Below are positions 5,297 to 19,034 of a DNA stretch of 64,000 bases, piece by piece; the stretch's first letter is position 1, and each line of letters opens with the position of its first letter. This stretch comes from Luteithermobacter gelatinilyticus (lineage in GTDB: Bacteria; Pseudomonadota; Alphaproteobacteria; Sphingomonadales; Emcibacteraceae). Made by a program: the position numbers and the translations under genes. The DNA is taken from the NCBI RefSeq assembly GCF_005849285.1, contig NZ_CP040517.1:936501-1000500 (forward strand), read 5' to 3'. Below the pieces are notes generated by a model, which was given only the letters and a program-made list of their open reading frames with translations, made no database searches and was not told where the DNA came from.

Positions 5297-6439
5297 TTAG
5301 GCCATGGGGATCCAAATTTTGACGTTTGTCCCTTTTCCAAGAGTACTTTGTATCTCCAGCTTACCAAGAGATTGCTGAAGCAGCTTATCGGCTGCCGTGA
5401 GGCCCAGTCCCAGTCCACCGTGCTTGCGGGTATAACTGGGGTCAGCCACTTCAAATGCTTTTGTGGCAGACTTTATCATCTTTTCAGACATGCCAACACC
5501 GTTATCGGCAATGCTAATTATTGCCCACTTCTGATTAACGCGTTCAATTTTGATAAATATTTTCCCTTCTGTTTCGGTGTATTTTATAGCGTTATCCAAA
5601 ATATACAGAACGGCCTGTTTAAGGTTTGTCTTTGAGAACAGAACCGGGATATGTTTTGTTGTATATATGATGGACACATCTCGTGGGGTTTGGTCAAGGA
5701 GATTTTGAAGATGGTCGTGAATATCGCTATGCCAGAACCTAACGAGGTCAAATTTTTCTTTGGGTATCGACTCGTGTGAAGCGGCGATTTCGATGGCCTT
5801 TTCAACTTTTGCCAGTAAATCTTTACCTGCGGATTTGATTGCTTCTATACTCCATTCGTCCGTCTTGTACTTCGGATTGGACAACAGGAGTTCAGAGAAA
5901 CCGATTATATGGTTTAAGGGTGTCCGTAGTTCATGGTTGAGGTTTGCAATAAATAATCGACGGGATTCAGCTAGTGCTTCCGCTTTATTACGTTCCTTTA
6001 TCAAAGCTGCCCTTGAAAGTTGTGCCTTGTGAGCAATCATAATAACAGGTGCGACAGCATTAATTATTGCAAGTTCGTGCTTGGAAGGGGCTCTTGATTC
6101 TGAATAATAAATGACCAAGATGGCAATAACATTTCCATGATCATCCCTTACGGTGTGTGACCAACAGGAGGCCAGGCCCTCTGCAAGGGCCAATTTGCTC
6201 AGTTTTCTGTAGAGCGAATTGGGGTGGCTGGCAATATCCTCAGCAAAAATCAATCGGTTTGTAAAGGCAGTGGTTTCTGAACCGTCAATATTTCCAGAAA
6301 TTTCCATAGAATCTATGGCGTTTATATATTTTGATGTCAAATTCCGGGCTGTCAGGTGCCTTAAACAGCGTTGTTGATCAATCTCGAACACAGAAAGCGC
6401 CATTGATGGATCAACTGCAAGAAGTTGATCAAGGATCAC
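5297..6439 (-). CDS. Sensor histidine kinase, GAF-HisKA-HATPase part of a frameshifted gene
   Basis: 380 residues from a GTG at 6439, which is almost certainly not the real start. Order: GAF-like domain (about residues 1-140), coiled linker, HisKA box with phospho-accepting H169 (NHELRTPLN), N box (LDNAIKYTE), G1 (ADNGVGM) and G2 (GGLGLGLT) of the ATPase domain. It would autophosphorylate and signal to a response regulator, but none is adjacent. The natural protein should continue upstream into the PAS-domain frame at 6436-6822; one extra base in the six-base C run at 6462-6467 (plus strand) joins them as EISRGGSFKSACNVILDQ. As sequenced the gene is broken. Confidence 0.75.
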   Translation of the reverse strand: MILDQLLAVDPSMALSVFEIDQQRCLRHLTARNLTSKYINAIDSMEISGNIDGSETTAFTNRLIFAEDIASHPNSLYRKLSKLALAEGLASCWSHTVRDDHGNVIAILVIYYSESRAPSKHELAIINAVAPVIMIAHKAQLSRAALIKERNKAEALAESRRLFIANLNHELRTPLNHIIGFSELLLSNPKYKTDEWSIEAIKSAGKDLLAKVEKAIEIAASHESIPKEKFDLVRFWHSDIHDHLQNLLDQTPRDVSIIYTTKHIPVLFSKTNLKQAVLYILDNAIKYTETEGKIFIKIERVNQKWAIISIADNGVGMSEKMIKSATKAFEVADPSYTRKHGGLGLGLTAADKLLQQSLGKLEIQSTLGKGTNVKIWIPMA

Positions 6440-6822
6440 ATTACATGCCGACTTAAAGCTGCCCCCCTAGATATCTCCATAAGTGCAAGGCGCTCAGCCT
6501 CGATAAGAATAGAGGAGAGCTTCTGTCTAGTGACATCAGTACGAACCGCAATATAACCTTCTATCCTACTATTAGAATCTAAAATTGGGCCTATTGTGCT
6601 TTCCACCCAGTAGAGACCCCCATTTTTTTTGCGGTTACAGATTTCACCATGCCATGTTTCCCCACGGCAGATAGTTTGCCACAGGTCGTTCCAGAAAGCG
6701 CGACTATGATGACCTGAATTGATAATAGCATGTGACTGGCCGATTAATTCATCACGGTCATAGCCGGAAATTTCGCAAAATTTGTCATTGACATCGGAGA
6801 TGATTCCCCTTGTGTCAGTCAT
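6436..6822 (-). CDS. PAS sensor domain, N-terminal part of the frameshifted histidine kinase
   Basis: 128 codons. A PAS domain reads TRGIISDVNDKFCEISGYDR, then GQSHAIINSGHHS, FWNDLWQTICRGETWHGEI and NRKKNGGLYWVESTIGPI, followed by a PAC-type tail (YIAVRTDVTRQK). The frame stays open upstream past 6822 (KSHAIVAM precedes MTDTRG) to a run of ten G on the plus strand at 6882-6891. Just beyond it is an ATG at 6914 with a GGAAG ribosome site, but in a different phase; 11 G would connect them. The frame ends by sliding four bases into the kinase part. The intact protein was probably a PAS-GAF-HisKA-HATPase cytosolic sensor spanning 6914 to 5297. Confidence 0.65.
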   Translation of the reverse strand: MTDTRGIISDVNDKFCEISGYDRDELIGQSHAIINSGHHSRAFWNDLWQTICRGETWHGEICNRKKNGGLYWVESTIGPILDSNSRIEGYIAVRTDVTRQKLSSILIEAERLALMEISRGAALSRHVM

Positions 6823-7959: not shown

Positions 7960-7980
7960 TTATCATCAATTTGATGATAA
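7960..7980. promoter_or_regulatory. 21-bp perfect palindrome, likely operator of the WYL regulator
   Basis: TTATCATCAA at 7960-7969 and its exact reverse complement at 7971-7980 flank one T. It sits 12 bp upstream of a -35 box and about 90 bp before the WYL regulator start. BrxR/CapW-type WYL repressors are known to bind inverted repeats in their own promoter regions; assignment here is inference. Confidence 0.6.
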
Positions 7981-7992
7981 CAATGGCTATTA

Positions 7993-8022
7993 TTGACATC
8001 GATATGGTATGCAACATATGCT
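7993..8022 (+). promoter_or_regulatory. Sigma-70-like promoter of the defence cassette
   Basis: TTGACA at 7993-7998 is followed after 18 bp by TATGCT (8017-8022). It faces the WYL gene and lies next to the palindrome at 7960-7980. Tight spacing of the five genes downstream suggests it drives all of them. Confidence 0.6.
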
Positions 8023-8071
8023 ACATAGCGAAATTGCGCACTAAAATGCGAGAGGTGTCCCCAATTCGTTC

Positions 8072-8959
8072 ATGGCAAAAACGCAGCTAGAAGACATTAG
8101 CCAGGCACAACAGGAACGATTGTTCCATATCGACTTTAAGTTGAGGTTCCTCGGCGCAGTTAATCGCAATGACCTCACATCGCGGTTTGGCATCAAGGCC
8201 GCGGCGGCTACCCGGGACCTTTCCCTCTATAAGGAGCTGGCGCCCAAGAACCTGGATTACGACACCAAAGCCAAGACTTACATCCAGTCCGATCACTTCA
8301 AACCGATATTCGACTATTCGCAAAGCCAGGCTCTCACTGCACTTTGCCAAGGGCTGGGCGACGACTACGTGGGTACGCACCGGCCGCTGATCAGTGCAGA
8401 GACACCGATCCAGCTCAACGCCCCCCAGATGGCCATTCTCGCTAAGGTCAGCCAGGCCATCTACCAGAAGCGAGTGCTGCAGATCCAATACCGCTCCCTG
8501 TCCAGCGGAGCGACTTTCCGCGAAATTGTGCCCTTTGCCCTGGTGGATAACGGCCTGCGCTGGCACGTCCGCGCCTATGACCGCAAGCGCGAGCGTTTCA
8601 CCGACTTTGTCATCAACCGCATCGCCAAGCCTAGACTGTTGAACGAATCCACCATACCGGCCAACGAAACCAAAGAAGCGGATATTCAGTGGAATCGCAT
8701 CGTCGAGATGCACCTGGTGCCGCATCCGCGGCTGCAATACCCGGAAACGGTCGAATACGAATACGGCATGCAGGACGGCATGCTGAAGGTGAATGTGCGA
8801 GCGGCCGTGGCGGGCTACGTGCTGTGGCGCTGGAACGTCGACTGCTCGGAGAATCACGCCCTCACAGGTGCCGAGTATCACTTATGGCTGAAGAACCAGC
8901 AAACGCTCTATGGCGTTGAGAACTTGGTCATTGCACCAGGTTATGAGTACATGGCTTAG
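8072..8959 (+). CDS. WYL-domain transcriptional regulator (BrxR/CapW-like)
   Basis: 295 residues. The N-terminal part (about 10-80) looks like a winged helix, with RFLGAVNRNDLTSRFGIKAA then AATRDLSLYKEL. The WYL core (about 125-205) contains ISQAIYQKR-like VSQAIYQKRVLQIQYRSLSS, then FREIVPFALVDNGLRWHVRA and YDRKRERFTDFVINRI; a WCX-type tail follows. Length and plan match defence-associated WYL repressors that bind nucleotide or DNA-end ligands. It is the first gene of the cassette, 11 bp before the helicase, and has a palindromic operator candidate upstream, so autoregulation of the restriction genes is likely. Codon use is GC-rich compared with the left flank. Confidence 0.85.
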   Translation: MAKTQLEDISQAQQERLFHIDFKLRFLGAVNRNDLTSRFGIKAAAATRDLSLYKELAPKNLDYDTKAKTYIQSDHFKPIFDYSQSQALTALCQGLGDDYVGTHRPLISAETPIQLNAPQMAILAKVSQAIYQKRVLQIQYRSLSSGATFREIVPFALVDNGLRWHVRAYDRKRERFTDFVINRIAKPRLLNESTIPANETKEADIQWNRIVEMHLVPHPRLQYPETVEYEYGMQDGMLKVNVRAAVAGYVLWRWNVDCSENHALTGAEYHLWLKNQQTLYGVENLVIAPGYEYMA

Positions 8960-8970
8960 GCAGGGAAGAC

Positions 8971-11900
8971 ATGCAGGTTTTAGACAATATCAATGCCTTA
9001 TTGGGTGATGACTTAAAACAAACACTAAAGCCCGGGAGCAGACTCAAGGTCGCCGCGTCTTGCTTCTCGATTTACGCTTTCGAAGCTCTGAAGTCCGAGC
9101 TCTCGAAGATCGATAGCCTGCAGTTTATCTTCACTGCTCCAACCTTTGTGCCGACCGAGGTGACCGACCGCCTTCAGAAGGAACGTCGGGAGTTCTTTAT
9201 TCCCAAGGCGCAGCGGGAAAGCGGTCTCTATGGCACGGAATTCGAGATCCAGTTGCGCAACAAGCTCACTCAACGCGCCGTCGCCCGCGAGTGCGCCGAC
9301 TGGGTCCGCAAGAAGGCCAGTTTCCGATCCAACACGACCAAGGCCCCGATGCAGCAATTTGTGCACGTAGCCGGACCTAAAGGCGAAGCGGCCTACATGC
9401 CAATCAGCGGTTTTACAGCCGTGGATCTTGGCTACCAGAAGGGTGATGCGGTCTCCAACTTCGTAACACGCTTCGATGATCCGGTGCATGCCAAGATGTA
9501 TCTTCAGCTATTCGATCAGATTTGGTCGGACCCGGACAAGGTGAAGGACGTCACCGCTGCTATTTGCGAGTACATCGAGTCCGTCTATCAAGAAAATTCG
9601 CCTGAGCGCATCTATTTCATGATGCTTTACAACATCTTTCGCGACTTTCTGGATGAAGTTGATGAAGACGTTTTGCCAAACGACCTGACCGGTTATCAGG
9701 ACAGTGTTGTCTGGAATAAGCTATTCAATTATCAAAAGGATGCGGCAACCGGCATCATCAATAAACTTGAGGCCTATAACGGTTGTATCCTTGCAGACTC
9801 AGTTGGCCTTGGCAAGACATTCACCGCCCTGGCTGTGATCAAATATTACGAATTGCGAAACCGTTCCGTTCTTGTTCTATGCCCCAAGAAACTTGCAGAT
9901 AACTGGCGAAACTACAACACAAACCTGACGACCAACATTTTCGCAAAGGACAGGTTCAACTATGACGTCCTCTGCCACACGGATCTGTCCCGAACCTCCG
10001 GCGAGTCCTTCGGTATCCCACTTAATCGCGTGAACTGGGGCAACTATGATCTCGTCGTGATCGACGAGTCACACAACTTCCGCAACAACGATGTCTACAA
10101 AGATCGCGAGACGCGCTACCAAAAGCTGATGAACAAGGTCATCCGCGCCGGCGTGAAGACCAAAGTGCTGATGCTATCCGCAACACCGGTGAACAACAGG
10201 TTCTCCGACCTTCGTAACCAGCTGGCGCTTGCCTACGAGGGGCAGTCCGAAGCGCTCAGCGAAAATCTGAAGACACAAACCAGCATCGAAGAGATTTTCC
10301 GCCGGGCCCAGAAAGCCTTCAATGAATGGTCTTCCTTGCCTCCAGAGGAAAGAACTGCAGCGTCAATCCTGAAGGCGCTCGACTTCGATTTCTTTGAACT
10401 TCTTGACGCCGTGACCATCGCTCGGTCGCGAAAGCATATCGAGACGTTTTACGATACCAAGGACATCGGCAAATTCCCCCAGCGGCGCAAGCCGCTTTCA
10501 TTCCATTGCCCGCTCACCGAGCGGTTCGACGTAATGGGGCTCAACGACATCTTCGCGCAGCTTTCGGTGCTGAAGCTCGCGGTCTACGCCCCGATCAGCT
10601 ACATCCTGCCCAGCCGTCTGCGGAAGTATGAGGAGCTCTACGACACACAGGTCGAGGGTGGCCGCGGCAAGCTCAGGCAGGCGGATCGGGAGCGCAGCCT
10701 GCAGGCGCTGATGACGACCAACCTGCTCAAGCGCCTGGAAAGCTCGGTCGCGGCGTTCCGCATCACACTTCGGTCTCTCGGCGCCAACATCTCGCACACG
10801 CTCGACGCCATCGACGAATTCGAGAAAACTGGGCGCAATGAGAGCGTCGGTGACTACCTTGCGGAAGTAAGCGACTTCGACCCGGAAGACGAGGACCTTA
10901 CCGGCCTCGACGAGTTCACGGTCGGCAAGAAAGTGCAGATCAGCCTCGCCGATATGGACTTGCCGTCCTGGAAGCACGACCTGTCGGCAGACCTCGCCCT
11001 TATCGAGGACCTGATCACCTCGATGGAGAAAGTCAAACCGGAGGACGACGCCAAGCTCCAGCACCTGCTCGATCTTATCCAGCGCAAGGTTGATGAGCCA
11101 CTGAATCCGGGAAACCGCAAGGTTCTGATCTTCACGGCCTTCGCCGACACCGCCAACTACCTGTATGACAACATCGCACCCTTCGCGCTGCAGCTCGGGC
11201 TGCATGTCGGAAAGGTCACTGGATCAGATGCGCCCAAGACCACACTCAGGAAGGTCTATGACTTCCAGAGCGTGTTAACACTGTTCTCCCCACGCTCGAA
11301 GGAAAAGGCCATCGTCCTGCCGGAGGAATCCAATGAACTGGATATCTTGATCGGTACAGATTGTATTTCGGAAGGCCAGAACCTTCAGGACTGTGATTTC
11401 TTGGTTAATTACGATATCCACTGGAACCCGGTACGCATTATTCAGCGCTTTGGGCGTATCGATCGGATCGGTTCCCCCAACAGCCAGATCCAGCTGGTCA
11501 ACTATTGGCCGGACATCACGCTCGACGAATACATCAACCTCAAGGAACGAGTTGAAAACCGGATGGTGATCACCGACATCACCGCCACCGGTGACGACAA
11601 TGTTCTCACCGCCAAATCGACTGATATTGCCTACCGTAAAGAGCAGCTTAAGCGCCTGCAGGAAGAAGTCATCGAGCTTGAGGATGTGAAGGCCGGTATA
11701 TCCATCACCGACCTTGGGCTGAACGACTTCCGGATGGATCTGCTCAATTACATTAAGGTGCACGGCGAACTCGACAACCTCCCACCCGGCATGCATGCGG
11801 TCGTCCCCGCGCAGCCGGAGCTAGGCCTACACCCTGGCGTCATCTTCGCGCTGAAAAACATCCACGACAGCGTGAACGTCAACCAGCAGAACCGCTTGCA

Positions 11901-12243
11901 TCCGTTCTACCTGGTTTATATCGGCGACGACGGCCAGATCATCGCCGACCACACCGAGGTCAAGCGTCTGCTCGATTTGATCCGCACCAGTTGCAAGGGG
12001 CGGACGGAACCACTGCACGATCTTTGCCGCATCTTTAATGAACGAACCGATAACGGACGCAGGATGGACCGCTATTCCGACCTGCTCTCCAGTGCGATCC
12101 GCTCTATGATTGAGGTCAAAGAAGAGAAGGACATCGACAGCCTGTTCAGCGGCGGGCGCACTACGGCGCTGAGCCACACCATCAAGGGGCTGGACGATTT
12201 TGAACTGATCGCCTTTCTGGTCATCGAAGGGGGCGGGCCATGA
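8971..12243 (+). CDS. SNF2-type helicase with N-terminal PLD-like domain
   Basis: 1090 residues. The N-terminal ~200 residues resemble a phospholipase-D-like domain (LKVAASCFSIYAFEALKSEL; HAKMYLQLFD near the end) but I see no complete HxKx4D motif, so nuclease activity is doubtful. The superfamily-2 motor follows: Walker A GLGKT at 279-283, DESH at 365-368, motif III LMLSATPVNNRFSDL, and motif VI QRFGRIDRIGS starting at Q825. The C-terminal ~200 residues are partner-specific. It should translocate on DNA using ATP. It overlaps the DUF4391-like gene by ATGA, which suggests translational coupling. Such helicases recur in defence islands; its exact task beside a type III system is unknown to me. 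Confidence 0.88.
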   Translation: MQVLDNINALLGDDLKQTLKPGSRLKVAASCFSIYAFEALKSELSKIDSLQFIFTAPTFVPTEVTDRLQKERREFFIPKAQRESGLYGTEFEIQLRNKLTQRAVARECADWVRKKASFRSNTTKAPMQQFVHVAGPKGEAAYMPISGFTAVDLGYQKGDAVSNFVTRFDDPVHAKMYLQLFDQIWSDPDKVKDVTAAICEYIESVYQENSPERIYFMMLYNIFRDFLDEVDEDVLPNDLTGYQDSVVWNKLFNYQKDAATGIINKLEAYNGCILADSVGLGKTFTALAVIKYYELRNRSVLVLCPKKLADNWRNYNTNLTTNIFAKDRFNYDVLCHTDLSRTSGESFGIPLNRVNWGNYDLVVIDESHNFRNNDVYKDRETRYQKLMNKVIRAGVKTKVLMLSATPVNNRFSDLRNQLALAYEGQSEALSENLKTQTSIEEIFRRAQKAFNEWSSLPPEERTAASILKALDFDFFELLDAVTIARSRKHIETFYDTKDIGKFPQRRKPLSFHCPLTERFDVMGLNDIFAQLSVLKLAVYAPISYILPSRLRKYEELYDTQVEGGRGKLRQADRERSLQALMTTNLLKRLESSVAAFRITLRSLGANISHTLDAIDEFEKTGRNESVGDYLAEVSDFDPEDEDLTGLDEFTVGKKVQISLADMDLPSWKHDLSADLALIEDLITSMEKVKPEDDAKLQHLLDLIQRKVDEPLNPGNRKVLIFTAFADTANYLYDNIAPFALQLGLHVGKVTGSDAPKTTLRKVYDFQSVLTLFSPRSKEKAIVLPEESNELDILIGTDCISEGQNLQDCDFLVNYDIHWNPVRIIQRFGRIDRIGSPNSQIQLVNYWPDITLDEYINLKERVENRMVITDITATGDDNVLTAKSTDIAYRKEQLKRLQEEVIELEDVKAGISITDLGLNDFRMDLLNYIKVHGELDNLPPGMHAVVPAQPELGLHPGVIFALKNIHDSVNVNQQNRLHPFYLVYIGDDGQIIADHTEVKRLLDLIRTSCKGRTEPLHDLCRIFNERTDNGRRMDRYSDLLSSAIRSMIEVKEEKDIDSLFSGGRTTALSHTIKGLDDFELIAFLVIEGGGP

Positions 12244-13016
12244 CCGCCTCTGAGATTCTCTACGACTGGCCCCGCGCTTCTGCCTTCGGGCGCGTGATCC
12301 CCAAGAGCAAGATCTACGAACATGCCAGCGCCAACACAGCGTTGAAGGACCTCTTCGTGCGCGAGGTGGACCAGATTGTCTGGTCGCATAAGCTGGCGCC
12401 CGAGACGATTAATCTGACCGCCACGAAGCAGGTTGCAGAAATTCAGGTCTTCTGTATCACCGCGCGCACCGCAACACTGGATGAAAAGGTGCTGCGTGCC
12501 ATCGACAAGGCCATTCCTTTCCCACTGATCTTTGAGATTGCCCATGGCGGGAACATTCAAATGGCTGCGGCTTACAAACGGCCGTCTTTGAATAATCGGG
12601 GCGAGGCTGACAGCACCCGTTGGGTGGTGGGGGACTATTTCGAAAGCGATTGGTTGCCCGAAGATGCGCTGCGCACCCCGCTTCCGGTGGCGCTGAACCT
12701 GGGCGCGTTGTATGAGCGATTGCTCGAGCCGCTGGTGGCGGGGCAGACGGCGCGGCGGGTCGCCGGTATGGGTGAGGCACTTCAAGCGCCCTTCACCGCT
12801 GCTGAGCCGGAAAGGCCCATGTCGCTGGAAAAGCGCATCGCGCAGGCCGAGGCGATCGAACGCCAGACGCGCGAGGTCGAGCGGATCAAGGCGCGGCTTA
12901 AGCGCGAGAAACAATTCAACAAGCGCGTGACCATCAATGCCGAGCTGCGCGCAGCCAAGCAGGAACTGGAGCGGCTCATCCATAATGGGCTGGTCAACAT
13001 CGATTTAAATCGCTAA
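12240..13016 (+). CDS. DUF4391-like protein
   Basis: 258 residues, start ATG overlapping the helicase stop. The N-terminal ~190 residues match what I recall of DUF4391: start ILYDWPRASAFGRVIPKSKI, then VDQIVWSHKLAPETINL and IDKAIPFPLIFEI. The last ~70 residues are a highly charged predicted coiled coil (EAIERQTREVERIKARLKRE and so on), fit for binding a partner. No catalytic motif is evident. Function is unknown; its fixed place between helicase and Mod suggests an adaptor linking the two. The gene ends ten bases before the likely Mod start. Confidence 0.75.
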   Translation: MTASEILYDWPRASAFGRVIPKSKIYEHASANTALKDLFVREVDQIVWSHKLAPETINLTATKQVAEIQVFCITARTATLDEKVLRAIDKAIPFPLIFEIAHGGNIQMAAAYKRPSLNNRGEADSTRWVVGDYFESDWLPEDALRTPLPVALNLGALYERLLEPLVAGQTARRVAGMGEALQAPFTAAEPERPMSLEKRIAQAEAIERQTREVERIKARLKREKQFNKRVTINAELRAAKQELERLIHNGLVNIDLNR

Positions 13017-13026
13017 GAGGATGTCC

Positions 13027-14964
13027 ATGGATAAACTGAAAATGCACAGCCCCGACCTGAGCCAGGACAACATCGCCAAGATCCGCGAGCTGTTCCCCGG
13101 CTGCGTGACCGAGGCGCGGGACGAGAAGACGGGCAAGCTGCGTCTGGCAGTGGACTTCGATCAGCTTCGGCAGGAGCTGAGCGACCACATCGTGGAAGGG
13201 CCGCAGGAGCGGTATCGGCTGGACTGGCCGGGCAAGCGGCAAGCGCTGGCGCTGGCCAATGCGCCCATCGCCAAGACGCTGCGACCCTCTCCTCAAGAGA
13301 GCGTCGAATTCCAATCAACGCAAAATCTAGTCATCGAAGGCGATAACCTCGAAGCATTGAAACTGGTGCAGGAAACATATCTGGGTGCGATAAAATTCAT
13401 ATACATTGACCCACCGTACAACACTGGTAACGATTTTGTTTACGAGGACGATTTTGGCGCAAGCGCCCAAGACTTTCTCATAAAATCGAATCAGGTCGCG
13501 GGGTCGGGAGAACGACTCGTCGCAAATACAGACAGCAGCGGCCGGTTTCACTCTGATTGGCTTGATATGATCTACCCACGAGTTCGTATTGCGCGCAACC
13601 TCTTGGCTGAAGACGGAATTATTGTTGCATCAATTGACGAGAACGAGATATCGAATCTTCGAAAGGTGTTCGATGAAGTGTTCGGAGAAGATAATTTACT
13701 TTTCCAGATAACTCTTTTGTGCAACCCAAAAGGCAGGTCGCAAGATAAATATGTCGCCAATTGCCACGAATATTTGGTAGGGTATTCAAAGCAGCAACTT
13801 TCGAAGGGGGCTGTAAATGTTCCCAAAAGTGACGATGAGATAGCTGCAAACTACAAGCTAAAGGACAAGCGCGGACGCTACCGTGAGCTTGAGCTGCGCA
13901 ACACGCATAGAGAGTTTGGAAAACACAATCGTCAGAACCTATATTACCCGTTTTTTGTAAGCGCTAAGGGCGAAGTCGCGCTGGAGCCCGGCGACGGTCG
14001 AAAACCTGTCTATCCGGATTGGGAAGATGGCTTCGAAGGGTGCTGGACCTGGGGATTAGAGAAGGCTCGCGCCCAATTAGATGAGATCGTCGCGAGAGAG
14101 GTTAAAGGCACGTGGAAGATTTTCCGCAAGAACTATGCGACGGGTGACGATGGAGAAGCTACAAAGCAAGTCAAATCAATTTGGACTGATAAGATGTACC
14201 ATACCGAAAAAGGTCAAGCCGCGTTCAACGCGTTGTTTGAAACTCGTGAAAAGATCTTTCAGTCCCCTAAGTCCGTCGACACTCTTCGAGAGCTAATTCG
14301 AATGGCCACTCGGCAGGACTCTATCGTACTGGATTTCTTCGCGGGTTCAGGAACGACAGCGCACGCCGTTCTTGCTCAGAACGCAGAAGACGGCGGCAAT
14401 CGCAGGTTCGTTATGGTTCAAATTGCGGAACCAACGCCGGAGGGATCGGAGGCGCGAAAAGCAGGATTTGCGACTGTCGTGGAAATTACAAAAGAACGCA
14501 TCCGCCGCGCGGGTGAGAAGATCCTAGAAAGCCAATGCCACCCCGACTGGAACCGCGATGTCGGCTTCCGGGTGCTCAAGGTCGATACTTCGAACATGAA
14601 GGACGTCTACTACCGCCCGGACGAGCTGAAGCAGTCCGACCTGCTCGACATGGTGGACAACGTGAAGGAAGACCGCACGGCGGAAGACCTGCTGTTCCAG
14701 GTGCTGGTCGATTGGGGCGTGGACCTGACGCTGCCCATCCGCCGCGAAACGGTGCAGGGCAAGACCGTGTTCTTCGTCGACGACAACGCCCTCGTCGCCT
14801 GCTTCGACCGCGGGATCACCGAGGATCTGGTGAAGGAGCTGGCAAGCCACGAGCCCCTGCGCGTTGTCTTCCGCGACAACGGCTTCGTCTCGGACGCGGT
14901 GAAGATCAACGTCGAACAGATCTTCCGCCAGCTCTCGCCCACCACCGAAGTCAAAGCGATCTGA
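13027..14964 (+). CDS. Type III restriction-modification methyltransferase (Mod)
   Basis: 645 residues from ATG 13027, preferred to ATG 13021 because AAGAGG is then spaced six bases away. Motif [10 protein letters not shown] (128-131) comes before motif I FAGSG (438-442), the beta-class order of N6-adenine type III Mod enzymes. The intervening region includes the target-recognition part (about 200-400). Mod gives sequence specificity to the Mod-Res complex and methylates one strand. Bases about 13310-14510 are visibly more AT-rich than the gene's two ends, as if this recognition segment came from another source. Res follows after eight bases. Confidence 0.9.
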
Positions 14965-14972
14965 GGCCGGAC

Positions 14973-17900
14973 ATGAAACTCAAGTTCAAGGTCCAGCCCT
15001 ATCAGACCGCTGCGGTGGAATCGGTTGTCGATTGCTTCGAAGGCCAGCCCAAGCTGGACGGTCTGAGTTACCGTATAGATCCCGGAAACGTAAAGCCAGA
15101 TGCAATGGGCTATAAAGGATCGGCGCAAGCCTTCGAGGAAGGCTTCAAGAACGCCGACCTCGCCCTGAGCGACGTGCAGATCCTGGAGAACATCCAGAAG
15201 GTGCAGCAGCGCCAGAACCTGCCCGTCTCGCAGTCGTTGACAGACTTCACGACCTTCGACAACAAGGGCGCCCGCGTCCCCGTCAAGGCCGCCTACAAGA
15301 AACAGGCCATGGCCGCGAGCCGCATTCATCTCGACGTCGAGATGGAGACCGGCACGGGCAAGACCTATTGCTACATCAAGACCATCTTCGAGATGAACAA
15401 ACGCTATGGCTGGTCGAAATTCATCGTGATCGTGCCATCCATCGCCATCCGCGAGGGGGTCTTCAAATCGTTCCAGGTCACGGCCGACCATTTCACCGAG
15501 ACCTATGGCAGACGCGCGCGGTTTTTCATCTACAATTCCAAGCGCCTGCACGAGGTGGAAAGCTTTTCCTCGGACGCCGGGATCAACGTGATGATCATGA
15601 ACATCCAGGCGTTCAACGCGCGCGGCAAGGACAACCGACGGATCTATGAAGAGCTGGATGACTTCCAGTCGCGTCGGCCCATCGATGTGATCGCCGCGAA
15701 CCGCCCGATCCTGATTCTGGACGAACCTCAGAAGATGGAAGGTCAGGCAACGTTGGAGGCTCTGCCGAAGTTCAAGCCGCTGTTCATCCTGCGCTATTCG
15801 GCGACCCACCGCACCCAGCACAACCGCGTTCATCGGCTGGATGCGCTGGACGCCTACAACCAGAAACTGGTGAAGAAGATCGCCGTGCGGGGCATCCAGA
15901 CCCGCGGGCTGGCGGGTACGAATGCTTACCTTTACCTGGAAGGTATCGACATCTCGAAAAGGGCCCCCGTGGCGCGGATCGAGATGGAGGTGAAGCTGAA
16001 GTCGGGCGAGATCAAGCGCCAGCTTCGGAGGCTCGAATTCCGCGACGACCTGTTCGTGGAGTCGGGCGAGTTGGATCAGTATCGCGGCTTCACGATCAGC
16101 CAGATCGACGCCGTCAACGACACGGTCGAATTCACCAACGGGGAAATGCTGAGGGCTGGTGAGGCAAACGGCGACGTCTCTGAACGCGACATCCGCCGCA
16201 TCCAGATCCGCGAGACGATCAAGGCCCATCTGGACACGGAAAAGCAGCTGTTCGCACAGGGCATCAAGGTCTTGTCGCTGTTTTTCATCGACGAGGTGGT
16301 GAAATACCGGGACTACAATCAGGCCGACGAGAAAGGAGAGTATGCCCGGATCTTCGAGGAAGAGTACACGTTGTTAAGAGACGAGTACCTGTCGGAGCTT
16401 GCAATCGACAATGAGGCGTACCGGAAATATCTTGAGGGCCTCGACCCAGCCAAGACCCACAATGGCTATTTCTCGATCGACAAGAAGACGAAGCGCCTCA
16501 AGGATCCGGCCGTTGGTGCCCGCTCGGTCGATTCCGACGACGTGGATGCCTACGATCTGATCCTGAAGGACAAGGAGCGCCTGCTGTCGTTTGCAGAGCC
16601 GACGCGCTTCATCTTCTCCCACTCGGCACTGCGCGAAGGGTGGGACAACCCGAACGTCTTCGTCATGTGCATGCTGAAGCACAGTGACAACACCATCTCC
16701 CGCCGCCAGGAGGTGGGACGCGGCCTGCGGCTGAGCGTCGATCAGCACGGGGACAGGATGGACCACCCGGCGGTGGTGCACGACATCAATGTGCTGACTG
16801 TCGTGGCGAGCGAGAGCTACAAGGACTTCGTCGCCGGACTCCAGAAGGAGATCGCGGAAACCCTTTCGTCGCGTCCGCGGCAGGCAACAGAGGACTACTT
16901 CACGGGCAAGACACTCGCGACTGAGCATGGCCCGGTTGAGGTGACTGCCGCCATGGCCAAGCAGATCTACCGCTATCTGGTGAAGAATGACTACACCGAC
17001 GATGCGGACCAGATCGCAGACGCCTACCACGAGGCCAAGGCGGCGGGAAAACTAGCCGACTTGCCCGAGGAACTGAAGCCGCACGCCGAGCAGGTGTTCC
17101 AGCTCATCGACAGCGTCTTCAGCGACGCGCAACTGCCCAAGGTCGATGACGGCCGCAAGCCTAAGACCAATCCCCTGAATGCGAACTTTGAGAAGAAGGA
17201 GTTTCAGGCGCTCTGGGCGCGGCTCAATCGCAAAGCGGTCTATAGGGTTGAGTTCGACTCAACGGAACTGATCCAGATATGCGTGAATGCACTAAACAAA
17301 GAACTGTGCGTCACACCACTCCAATATACGGTGCAGGCAGGTATCCAGCAGGATGGACTGACCGACGAGCAGCTACGCCAGGGCGGAGGATTTGAGGTTC
17401 AGGAGACGAAAACAGAATATGGTGACTCCATTCACTCGCGCGTGAAATACGATCTTGTAGGCAAGGTTGCTGAAAATTCTAGACTAACTCGCAAAACAGT
17501 GGCGGAAATTCTTGGTAAAATTCAGCCTGTTGTTTTTGGCCAATTCAATAAGAATCCTGAGCATTTTATCGCCGAGGCTTCGCGTATCATTACCGAGCAG
17601 AAGGCCGCTATGGTGATCGAGCGTCTGGCCTACGATGAGCTGAATGAGCGGTACGATGTCGATATCTTCACGGCCAACCAGACTGGACAAGACTTCTCAC
17701 GTGCCACAAAGAAACTAAAGAAGCACGTATACGACTACGCGATCGTGGATTCCGAAGTTGAACGCAAGTTTGTTTCGGAAATGGATACAGGAGCCGAGAT
17801 TGTTGTTTATGCCAAATTGCCGCGTGGCTTCCTAATACCAACGCCTGTTGGGGATTACAACCCGGACTGGGCCATTTCGTTTGAAGAAGGTCGAGTGCGG

Positions 17901-18116
17901 CATATTTATTTTGTCGCAGAAACCAAAGGAACCATGTCTTCCATGAAATTGCGAGGCATCGAGGAGAAAAAAATCGACTGTGCACGAAGATTTTTCGAGA
18001 AAATCAGCAAGGACGTTACTGACAATCCTGTTAAATATGACGTCGTGGATAACTATGCGAAGTTAATGGATCTGGTGGGCCATACTGGCGCGGGGCAAAC
18101 AAGACCTGGCAGCTGA
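14973..18116 (+). CDS. Type III restriction enzyme, Res subunit
   Basis: 1047 residues from ATG 14973, eight bases after mod; the frame is open farther upstream inside mod but the family start [15 protein letters not shown] fits this ATG. The SF2 motor shows Walker A GTGKT (127-131), DEPQ (250-253) in place of DEAD, as usual for Res, the SAT motif LRYSATHR, and motif [13 protein letters not shown]. The C-terminus carries a PD-ExK nuclease: D965 (NPDWAI) and ETK at 983-985. It cleaves unmethylated phage DNA after ATP-driven communication between two sites. All key residues are present, so the system looks functional. The last ~900 bases are less GC-rich than the rest. Confidence 0.92.
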
Positions 18117-18151: not shown

Positions 18152-18445
18152 CTATGAAGTTTCGTGGGATCCACCTGAGTAGAGGATGAATTCTGCAGCA
18201 CGACGTTTGATGAGACTGGAAAGTTTCCGGTCTCCCGCCCACACCCATCGCATGAACTCCGTTGGCACCTCGTCATGCTCATTCCGATTTACCTTCCGCT
18301 GCAGAGTTGAACGCTGCAGCGCCCCGGCGCCCAAGTTGAAGGTGAAAGATACAAGCGCATCGAACTGACCATCGGTCAGCGATAGCTTGACAGCCTCACT
18401 CTTGAAGTTTTCTGAATGTATTTTTCGGATCATAATTTCCTCCAT
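18152..18445 (-). pseudogene. Phage lysozyme (GH24) C-terminal remnant fused to a transposase-like start
   Basis: From about 18390 down, the minus frame reads LTDGQFDALVSFTFNLGAGA, LQRSTLQRKVNRNEHDEVP and EFMRWVWAGDRKLSSLIKRR, the C-terminal half of phage T4-type lysozymes. The catalytic N-terminal Glu region is missing. The first ~20 residues (IRKIHSENFKSEAVKL) instead resemble the start of IS3-family OrfA, with GGAGG before the ATG and a possible IS end farther upstream; that part is uncertain. It is best read as a junction between prophage debris and an IS fragment. It converges on the res gene. Confidence 0.65.
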
Positions 18446-18958: not shown

Positions 18959-19034
18959 TGGTGCCCCCACACGGACTCGAACCGCGGACCTACTGATTAC
19001 AAATCAGTTGCTCTACCAACTGAGCTATAGGGGC
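18959..19034 (-). tRNA. tRNA-Thr (UGU)
   Basis: The minus strand folds into a cloverleaf: acceptor GCCCCTA pairing with TGGGGGC, a D arm AGCTCAGTTGGTAGAGC, an anticodon loop TTTGTAA giving UGU, and T arm GGTTCGAGTCC. CCA is encoded (18959-18961). Its 3' end faces the phage/IS debris, as expected for a tRNA used as an integration site. Confidence 0.95.

Follow-up and report, generated by a model that had tools for sequence, protein, structure and literature searches.

In a 64-kb stretch of the Luteithermobacter gelatinilyticus genome (assembly GCF_005849285.1, contig NZ_CP040517.1, positions 936,501-1,000,500, forward strand; hereafter the window, meaning the whole stretch analyzed), consecutive genes probably encode an intact type III restriction system of four components, namely an SNF2-type helicase, a DUF4391 protein, the methyltransferase Mod and the nuclease Res, preceded by an optional WYL-domain regulator. 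The textbook type III system consists of Mod and Res; such systems methylate a single strand of their asymmetric site and cut about 25 bp away in an ATP-dependent manner. An earlier prediction, made from the letters of this DNA alone, had described a five-gene defense cassette, and all five frames were recovered where it had placed them, on one strand (+) between 8072 and 18116, intact, without internal stops and belonging to the families it had named. They are as tightly packed as it had claimed, with spacings of 11, -4 (ATGA), 4 or 10, and 8 bp; the third value depends on whether Mod starts at 13021 or at an in-frame ATG at 13027.

Conservation of the gene order

The check set beforehand for the proposed extended system was whether the helicase and DUF4391 genes accompany mod-res in other genomes. 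Loci were collected by helicase, by DUF4391 and by Res, in samples that partly overlap, and from plasmids. For the helicase, 84,980 species genomes were scanned and the best 80 of at least 571 confirmed stretches (58-90% identity) were used, a top-scoring rather than random set. DUF4391, mod and res followed the helicase on the same strand in 73 of these 80 loci. In six of the remaining seven the contig ended less than 4 kb beyond the helicase, and one (L134) was stretched by long insertions, so that DUF4391 and mod were seen and res was not reached. With that exception for res, none of the 80 loci with enough downstream DNA was without DUF4391, mod and res. A four-base overlap of a start codon with the helicase stop occurred in 45 of 78 loci.

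Among 385 genomes of the class Alphaproteobacteria (window's genome included), nine carried DUF4391 above the Pfam cut-off, the window among them. All seven of these loci with both flanks, again counting the window, had helicase and mod, and the other two were cut short by contig ends and showed a single partner each; of two matches below the cut-off, one had mod (L010) and one had neither partner (L011). On plasmids, the four genes stood in order in all 12 loci opened (chosen for diversity from 48 DUF4391-bearing records), some with extra genes or insertion sequences, and one IMG/VR contig (L012) also held all four. By record names, the four-gene form extends from Pseudomonadota to Actinomycetes, Acidobacteria, Planctomycetota and Saprospiraceae.

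The Res family occurred in 44 of the 398 genomes sampled from the phylum, and 40 regions were fetched. Loci were assigned to the same Res branch at 900 bits or more on our own profile, and upstream genes were counted where at least 10 kb of upstream DNA was available. Helicase and DUF4391 were both present in 15 of 19 loci of this branch. The pair was absent from all seven loci with more distant Res, comprising four lower-scoring ones (L079, L082, L083 and L084) and three EcoP15I-like ones with at least 7.5 kb upstream (L085, L086 and L089). Fourteen regions were excluded from the counts as fragmentary or too short upstream; DUF4391 was present in three of them (L060, L061 and L080) and was not found in L065 (5.6 kb upstream) or beside the Res fragments L090 and L091 (12 kb).

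The proteins also diverge together. Across 54 loci that encode all four proteins in full, the window among them, Mantel correlations were 0.89 for helicase-DUF4391, 0.85 for helicase-Res and 0.81 for DUF4391-Res, against a highest value of 0.19 in 500 permutations of each. Mod correlated with the other three at 0.51-0.56, and its variability was highest at about residues 240-420, the target recognition domain. From the sequences, this is the pattern expected of a Mod that exchanges its specificity and of a helicase, DUF4391 and Res that share one line of inheritance. As judged by gene order, then, the core is helicase-DUF4391-mod-res, and at the level of genomes the extended system of the original prediction is borne out, its mechanism being conjectural. 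That prediction had made the regulator part of the system as well; the WYL gene proved not to belong to the core.

The core proteins and related systems

The helicase gene (8971-12243, +) encodes a 1090-aa SNF2/RapA-like superfamily 2 (SF2) helicase or translocase with a conserved N-terminal domain. The protein matched SNF2-rel_dom (E=6e-12), Helicase_C (E=8e-13) and, over residues 2-1084, the PADLOC family C3a139 'HKD+Snf2' (E=2e-129). Its motor is akin to RapA and chromatin remodelers; the predicted model is only fair (pLDDT 67.7). In the 54 loci the helicase was the most conserved of the four proteins, with a median pairwise identity of 66% versus 60% for Res, 50% for Mod and 40% for DUF4391, and in helicase, Mod and Res alike the catalytic motifs were invariant or nearly so. 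The PLD-like label given to it by the original prediction found no support in catalytic residues. An HxK motif (HAK at residue 173) was common to the window and L012 only; all remaining helicase sequences (11 of 13 full-length, 17 of 19 N-terminal) lacked it. Pfam searches with ten pieces of the N-terminus yielded no PLD match at E values up to 5, hhalign returned 0.4% probability for the N-terminal alignment against one plasmid PLD protein, and the PLD fold, named by the PADLOC label alone, had no Pfam, profile or PDB support. An active PLD nuclease was rejected as unsupported, given this confinement of HxK and the absence of PLD matches in these searches. Distant relatives of the helicase contain a GSxxFTxxGL-like stretch, which we take to resemble the PLD signature and which would fit a dead PLD-like domain.

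The DUF4391 gene (12240-13016, +), joined to the helicase gene by the ATGA overlap, encodes 258 residues that matched PF14335 over profile positions 3-232 of 232 (E=4e-56). A score of 190.8 bits (cut-off 29.9) makes the protein a full family member, so 'DUF4391-like', the wording of the original prediction, named the right family too weakly. The predicted model (mean pLDDT 91.9) combines an alpha+beta domain (about 150 residues) with a C-terminal helical hairpin (196-222 / 226-251), in agreement with the coiled-coil tail that had been proposed. The E-Q-N tip of the hairpin (E223-Q225-N227) is conserved, and K22, W48, K51, E67, D89 and K113 were each retained in 73-75 of 75 sequences. Foldseek gave no match at E<=0.001, and a second aligner mostly covered the coiled coil at 189-258, so that these comparisons barely test the globular part. 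A profile search of PDB sequences reached E=0.7 at best, no other Pfam family matched convincingly, PADLOC 2.0.0 and NCBIfam contained no family matching at E<=0.001, and no DUF4391 relative of known function was found in these searches. In the literature searched, 'DUF4391' appeared in one paper only, on Actinomyces hosts of the epibiont TM7x, the accessible part of which reports enrichment in nonpermissive strains (3/3 vs 1/10 and 1/10 in the other groups; a small sample; PMC7784981). As a separate observation, the DUF4391 frame of L134 (13279-15438) runs to about 720 codons and may be fused to another domain.

The mod gene (13021-14964, +) encodes a 647-aa beta-class DNA amino-methyltransferase (PADLOC PDLC03634, E=3e-215) in which DPPY (residue 130) precedes FAGSG (residue 440), the beta-class order. 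DPPY was present in 54 of 54 loci and the final glycine of FxGxG varied; DPPY is carried by both m6A and m4C Mods and is thus not diagnostic of the methylated base (PMC8259958). The res gene (14973-18116, +) encodes 1047 residues matching PDLC03647 (E=0) and RE_endonuc (E=9e-33), with GTGKT at 127, DEPQ at 250, SAT at 276 and PD...ETK at 964-985. The catalytic motifs that had been called complete in both proteins are thus all present. res lies directly beside mod and encodes an SF2 motor with a C-terminal PD-(D/E)XK nuclease, the arrangement by which type III systems are recognized. Both proteins are homologous to EcoP15I (PDB 4zcf; Mod, E=6e-57; Res, E=3e-72) with the same order of motifs, whereas classical type III systems such as EcoP15I lack the two additional conserved genes. 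Two tandem mod genes, which possibly hold or switch specificities, were seen in single cassettes of L065, L154 (13939-17775) and L157 (13976-17730).

An additional ATPase in a type III system is not new. Murray et al. (2021) reported that mod is preceded on its 5' side by a gene for a helicase-like protein in the Eco86II and BspHIV systems, and also in over 500 genomes; they found the Eco86II helicase dispensable for methylation (PMC8259958). This three-gene form likewise places an SF2 helicase 5' of mod-res, with Mod and Res motifs intact according to that paper; of its two examples, Eco86II alone was compared here by sequence, and BspHIV by the published description. The 963-aa helicase of E. 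coli NCTC86 (Eco86II) aligned with the window helicase over 173 motor residues only (32%) and scored 104 bits on our own helicase profile, against 1333-2079 for five tested members of the window family. It shares 58% identity with L177 and L178, and 46% over 969 residues with L079 (PADLOC: DrmD). The NCTC86 Mod is larger than that of the window (1040 aa), its Res was unmatched by our Res profile, and no DUF4391 was detected by profile in its SNF2-Mod-Res locus. E. coli F9792 and B4103-1, which share the same motif (PMC8259958), have a helicase of the NCTC86 kind. In BspHIV, about 140 bp separate the helicase and mod genes (PMC8259958), too short for an intervening DUF4391 gene. Given the difference between the window and Eco86II helicases, two helicase families have joined type III systems.

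The original prediction had no experimental description of the combination to point to; the extra ATPase had in fact been published in 2021 (PMC8259958), and the four-gene form, with helicase and DUF4391 as separate genes, was not found described in the literature searched, with supplements, non-PMC preprints and most subscription papers lying outside the search. Nor did the available parts of PMC12458937, PMC7641849, PMC10853773, PMC12707154 and PMC12255303 describe the cassette. The type III systems of C. acnes and P. freudenreichii (motif AGCAGY), as far as the accessible portions of PMC7365801 and PMC5644110 present them, could not be tied to the window family.

A second helicase-bearing layout, with a DrmD-like SNF2 helicase, Mod and Res, was observed in L079 (1032-9361), L084 (1144-8998) and L177-L180, all without DUF4391 by profile. 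L180 is the NCTC86 locus; in L177 and L179 the stretch ends before res is complete. Intervening genes are Abi and AIPR in L177 and AAA and S8-peptidase in L179; a small gene upstream in L177 is named MAD1 by NCBI.

Proposed mechanism and alternative explanations

In the four-component system that we favor, Mod would bind an asymmetric site and methylate one of its strands, and Mod2Res would cut unmodified sites in the EcoP15I manner. The DUF4391 protein would have no catalytic part but act as an adaptor, binding the SNF2 motor and docking it onto Mod-Res, and the motor would travel on double-stranded DNA and aid restriction, for instance by removing bound proteins or by bringing site-bound complexes together. 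The WYL protein would repress the operon until infection or DNA damage. Several observations weigh against this proposal, which we nevertheless regard as rather likely. Four loci of the same Res branch (L055, L056, L069 and L078) have mod-res without the pair, which indicates that Mod and Res can probably work alone; several E. coli copies of the cassette are broken by insertion sequences; and partly purified Eco86II cut DNA with helicase peptides undetected (PMC8259958). The adaptor role is proposed from the predicted shape of DUF4391 and from the lack of a recognized enzyme fold in a globular part that the searches hardly tested, and any physical contact or activity of the cassette proteins is a prediction from genes and sequences.

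Anti-restriction-triggered effectors are nested in type I loci. By comparison, helicase and DUF4391 could be a separate effector riding on the type III system and released or triggered when restriction is blocked, a possibility that we consider real though rather unlikely. It would agree with the frequency of nested genes in the cassette (AlbA_2, RhuM, GmrSD, Fic and Abi_2 among the 46 of 56 inserts scanned), with the mod-res loci without the pair, and with the cutting by Eco86II without a detectable helicase (PMC8259958). Unlike the changing inserts, however, the pair is fixed upstream in a constant order across many phyla, it co-diverges with Res, and no helicase locus with enough downstream DNA among the 80 was without DUF4391, mod and res, L134 aside, where res was unreached. 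That the two genes are passengers adding nothing to an ordinary Mod-Res is very improbable: Mod and Res are complete and EcoP15I-like, and the pair is missing from the four same-branch loci out of 19, yet the helicase is conserved more strongly than the other three core proteins, its motor motifs are invariant and the distance matrices match. In a bolder version, which we think unlikely, helicase and DUF4391 would be a second widespread effector arm joined to type III in evolution; DUF4391 would have a new fold whose nearly invariant residues (K22, K51, E67, D89, K113 and the E223-Q225-N227 tip) form a working site sensing Mod-Res engagement or phage DNA, and the cassette would use translocation to destroy or silence incoming DNA, even if type III sites are absent from it, lie head-to-tail or are modified.

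A DISARM or BREX member that acquired a type III nuclease is extremely improbable. DISARM class 1, like the cassette, has an SNF2 helicase beside an amino-methyltransferase, and the helicase motor core has weak similarity to DrmD and BrxH; however, the DrmD score was 158 bits against a cut-off of 610, and DrmA reached 73 bits, in the motor core only. Among the PADLOC matches shown for the five proteins of the cassette (helicase, 25 of 45 families; Mod, 25 of 33), DrmB, DrmC and the BREX proteins PglZ, PglX and BrxC did not occur, and ten neighboring frames contained no DrmA, DrmB or DrmC Pfam family. BREX-related DUF499 systems also combine an SNF2 helicase and a methyltransferase in one operon (PMC12839542, in the accessible text); no DUF499 match was found in the cassette proteins, and 'DUF4391' and 'type III restriction' did not occur in the main text of that paper. 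With DrmD below cut-off, the other core families not found among the matches listed except for the motor-core DrmA score, and DUF499 unmatched, membership in DISARM, BREX or BREX-related systems was rejected.

Under the four-component reading, an uncharacterized motor and an uncharacterized protein accompany a large part of one type III branch; the form occurs, among others, in dozens of E. coli strains with complete genomes. Should the pair extend restriction, it would bear on how type III enzymes handle roadblocks and on their need for two inverted sites.

Regulator, inserted genes and neighboring DNA

The WYL gene (8072-8959, +) encodes a 295-aa protein that matched PF13280 (E=1e-12) and, over residues 3-292, E. 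fergusonii BrxR (PDB 7qfz, E=3e-95). It is homologous over its full length to the BrxR/CapW regulators 7qfz, 7tb5 and 7t8k, in line with the family originally named, and stands before a type III cassette; BrxR is found near many defense systems, including islands with type III restriction, according to the accessible part of Picton et al. (PMC9122601). A narrow three-sequence profile detected a WYL gene upstream in 2 of the 80 helicase loci (73 have at least 1 kb upstream), and L016, L067, L076 and E. coli CFT073 also have one. Many other loci carry small genes upstream of the cassette, in three annotated cases a short helix-turn-helix gene. The 2 of 80 suggest that WYL is probably one of several possible regulators, and by gene content the gene is optional.

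The cassette had been placed behind one promoter. A sigma-70-like match, TTGACA-18-TATGCT, does lie at 7993-8022 (+), with 10 of 12 consensus positions and its -10 within an imperfect palindrome (8008-8027); promoter-like sites in the region did not exceed shuffles (6 vs 5.6), which makes it a candidate. Upstream of it, a perfect inverted repeat at 7960-7980 (no strand assigned; 10-bp arms, one central base) is the sole perfect palindrome of the window with arms of at least 10 and a gap of 0-1. It is a candidate WYL operator, a role that we infer tentatively because no repeat with arms of at least 8 occurred within 300 bp upstream of the WYL genes of L016, L067, L106 and L176; L013 has an upstream repeat of different sequence.

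Between mod and res, 34 of 73 loci held more than 250 bp of extra DNA, marking this interval as a landing place. The inserted genes of at least 100 aa numbered 56, and the 46 scanned included 13 Schlafen AlbA_2, five RhuM and two GmrSD, with Fic, Abi_2, YhcG and others occurring once. The AlbA_2 insert, a Schlafen AlbA_2 plus RecG-C-like protein of about 549-559 aa, was present in L096 (15917-17572), L098, L100, L102, L118, L120, L121, L126, L127, L138, L145, L149 and L157.

In E. coli, mod-res of the CFT073 form was present in 54 of 5426 genomes (44 of them matching at least 80% of the query) and that of the NCTC11121 form in 23 of 5426; a plasmid-borne form, counted by its DUF4391 gene, occurred in 10 genomes, in nine on plasmids. 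CFT073 has WYL-helicase-DUF4391-mod-res adjoining tRNA-Leu. Among the broken copies, IS30 lies within the mod-res stretch in 6 of the 54 CFT073-form genomes and an IS5-like element in 2 of the 23 NCTC11121-form genomes, an IS3 element separates helicase from DUF4391 in NCTC11121, and one genome retains a helicase piece alone, beside IS26. On the E. coli plasmid CP057716.1 (L019, IncFIB-typed), a few kb separate the cassette from repA, and genes for an AAA ATPase and for 'porphyrin biosynthesis' are also present; this plasmid might be a phage-plasmid.

To the right of the window cassette is a tRNA-Thr gene (18959-19034, -). Two pieces of its 3' half had no second copy within the window, leaving integration at tRNA-Thr unproven. 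Between cassette and tRNA-Thr lies a truncated phage lysozyme gene (18152-18445, -; PF00959, profile 56-125 of 125), perhaps a mobile-element remnant. To the left, at 5297-6822 (-), a PAS frame (6436-6822) overlaps a GAF/histidine-kinase frame (5297-6439) by four bases, and the two may represent one split sensor kinase or two proteins.

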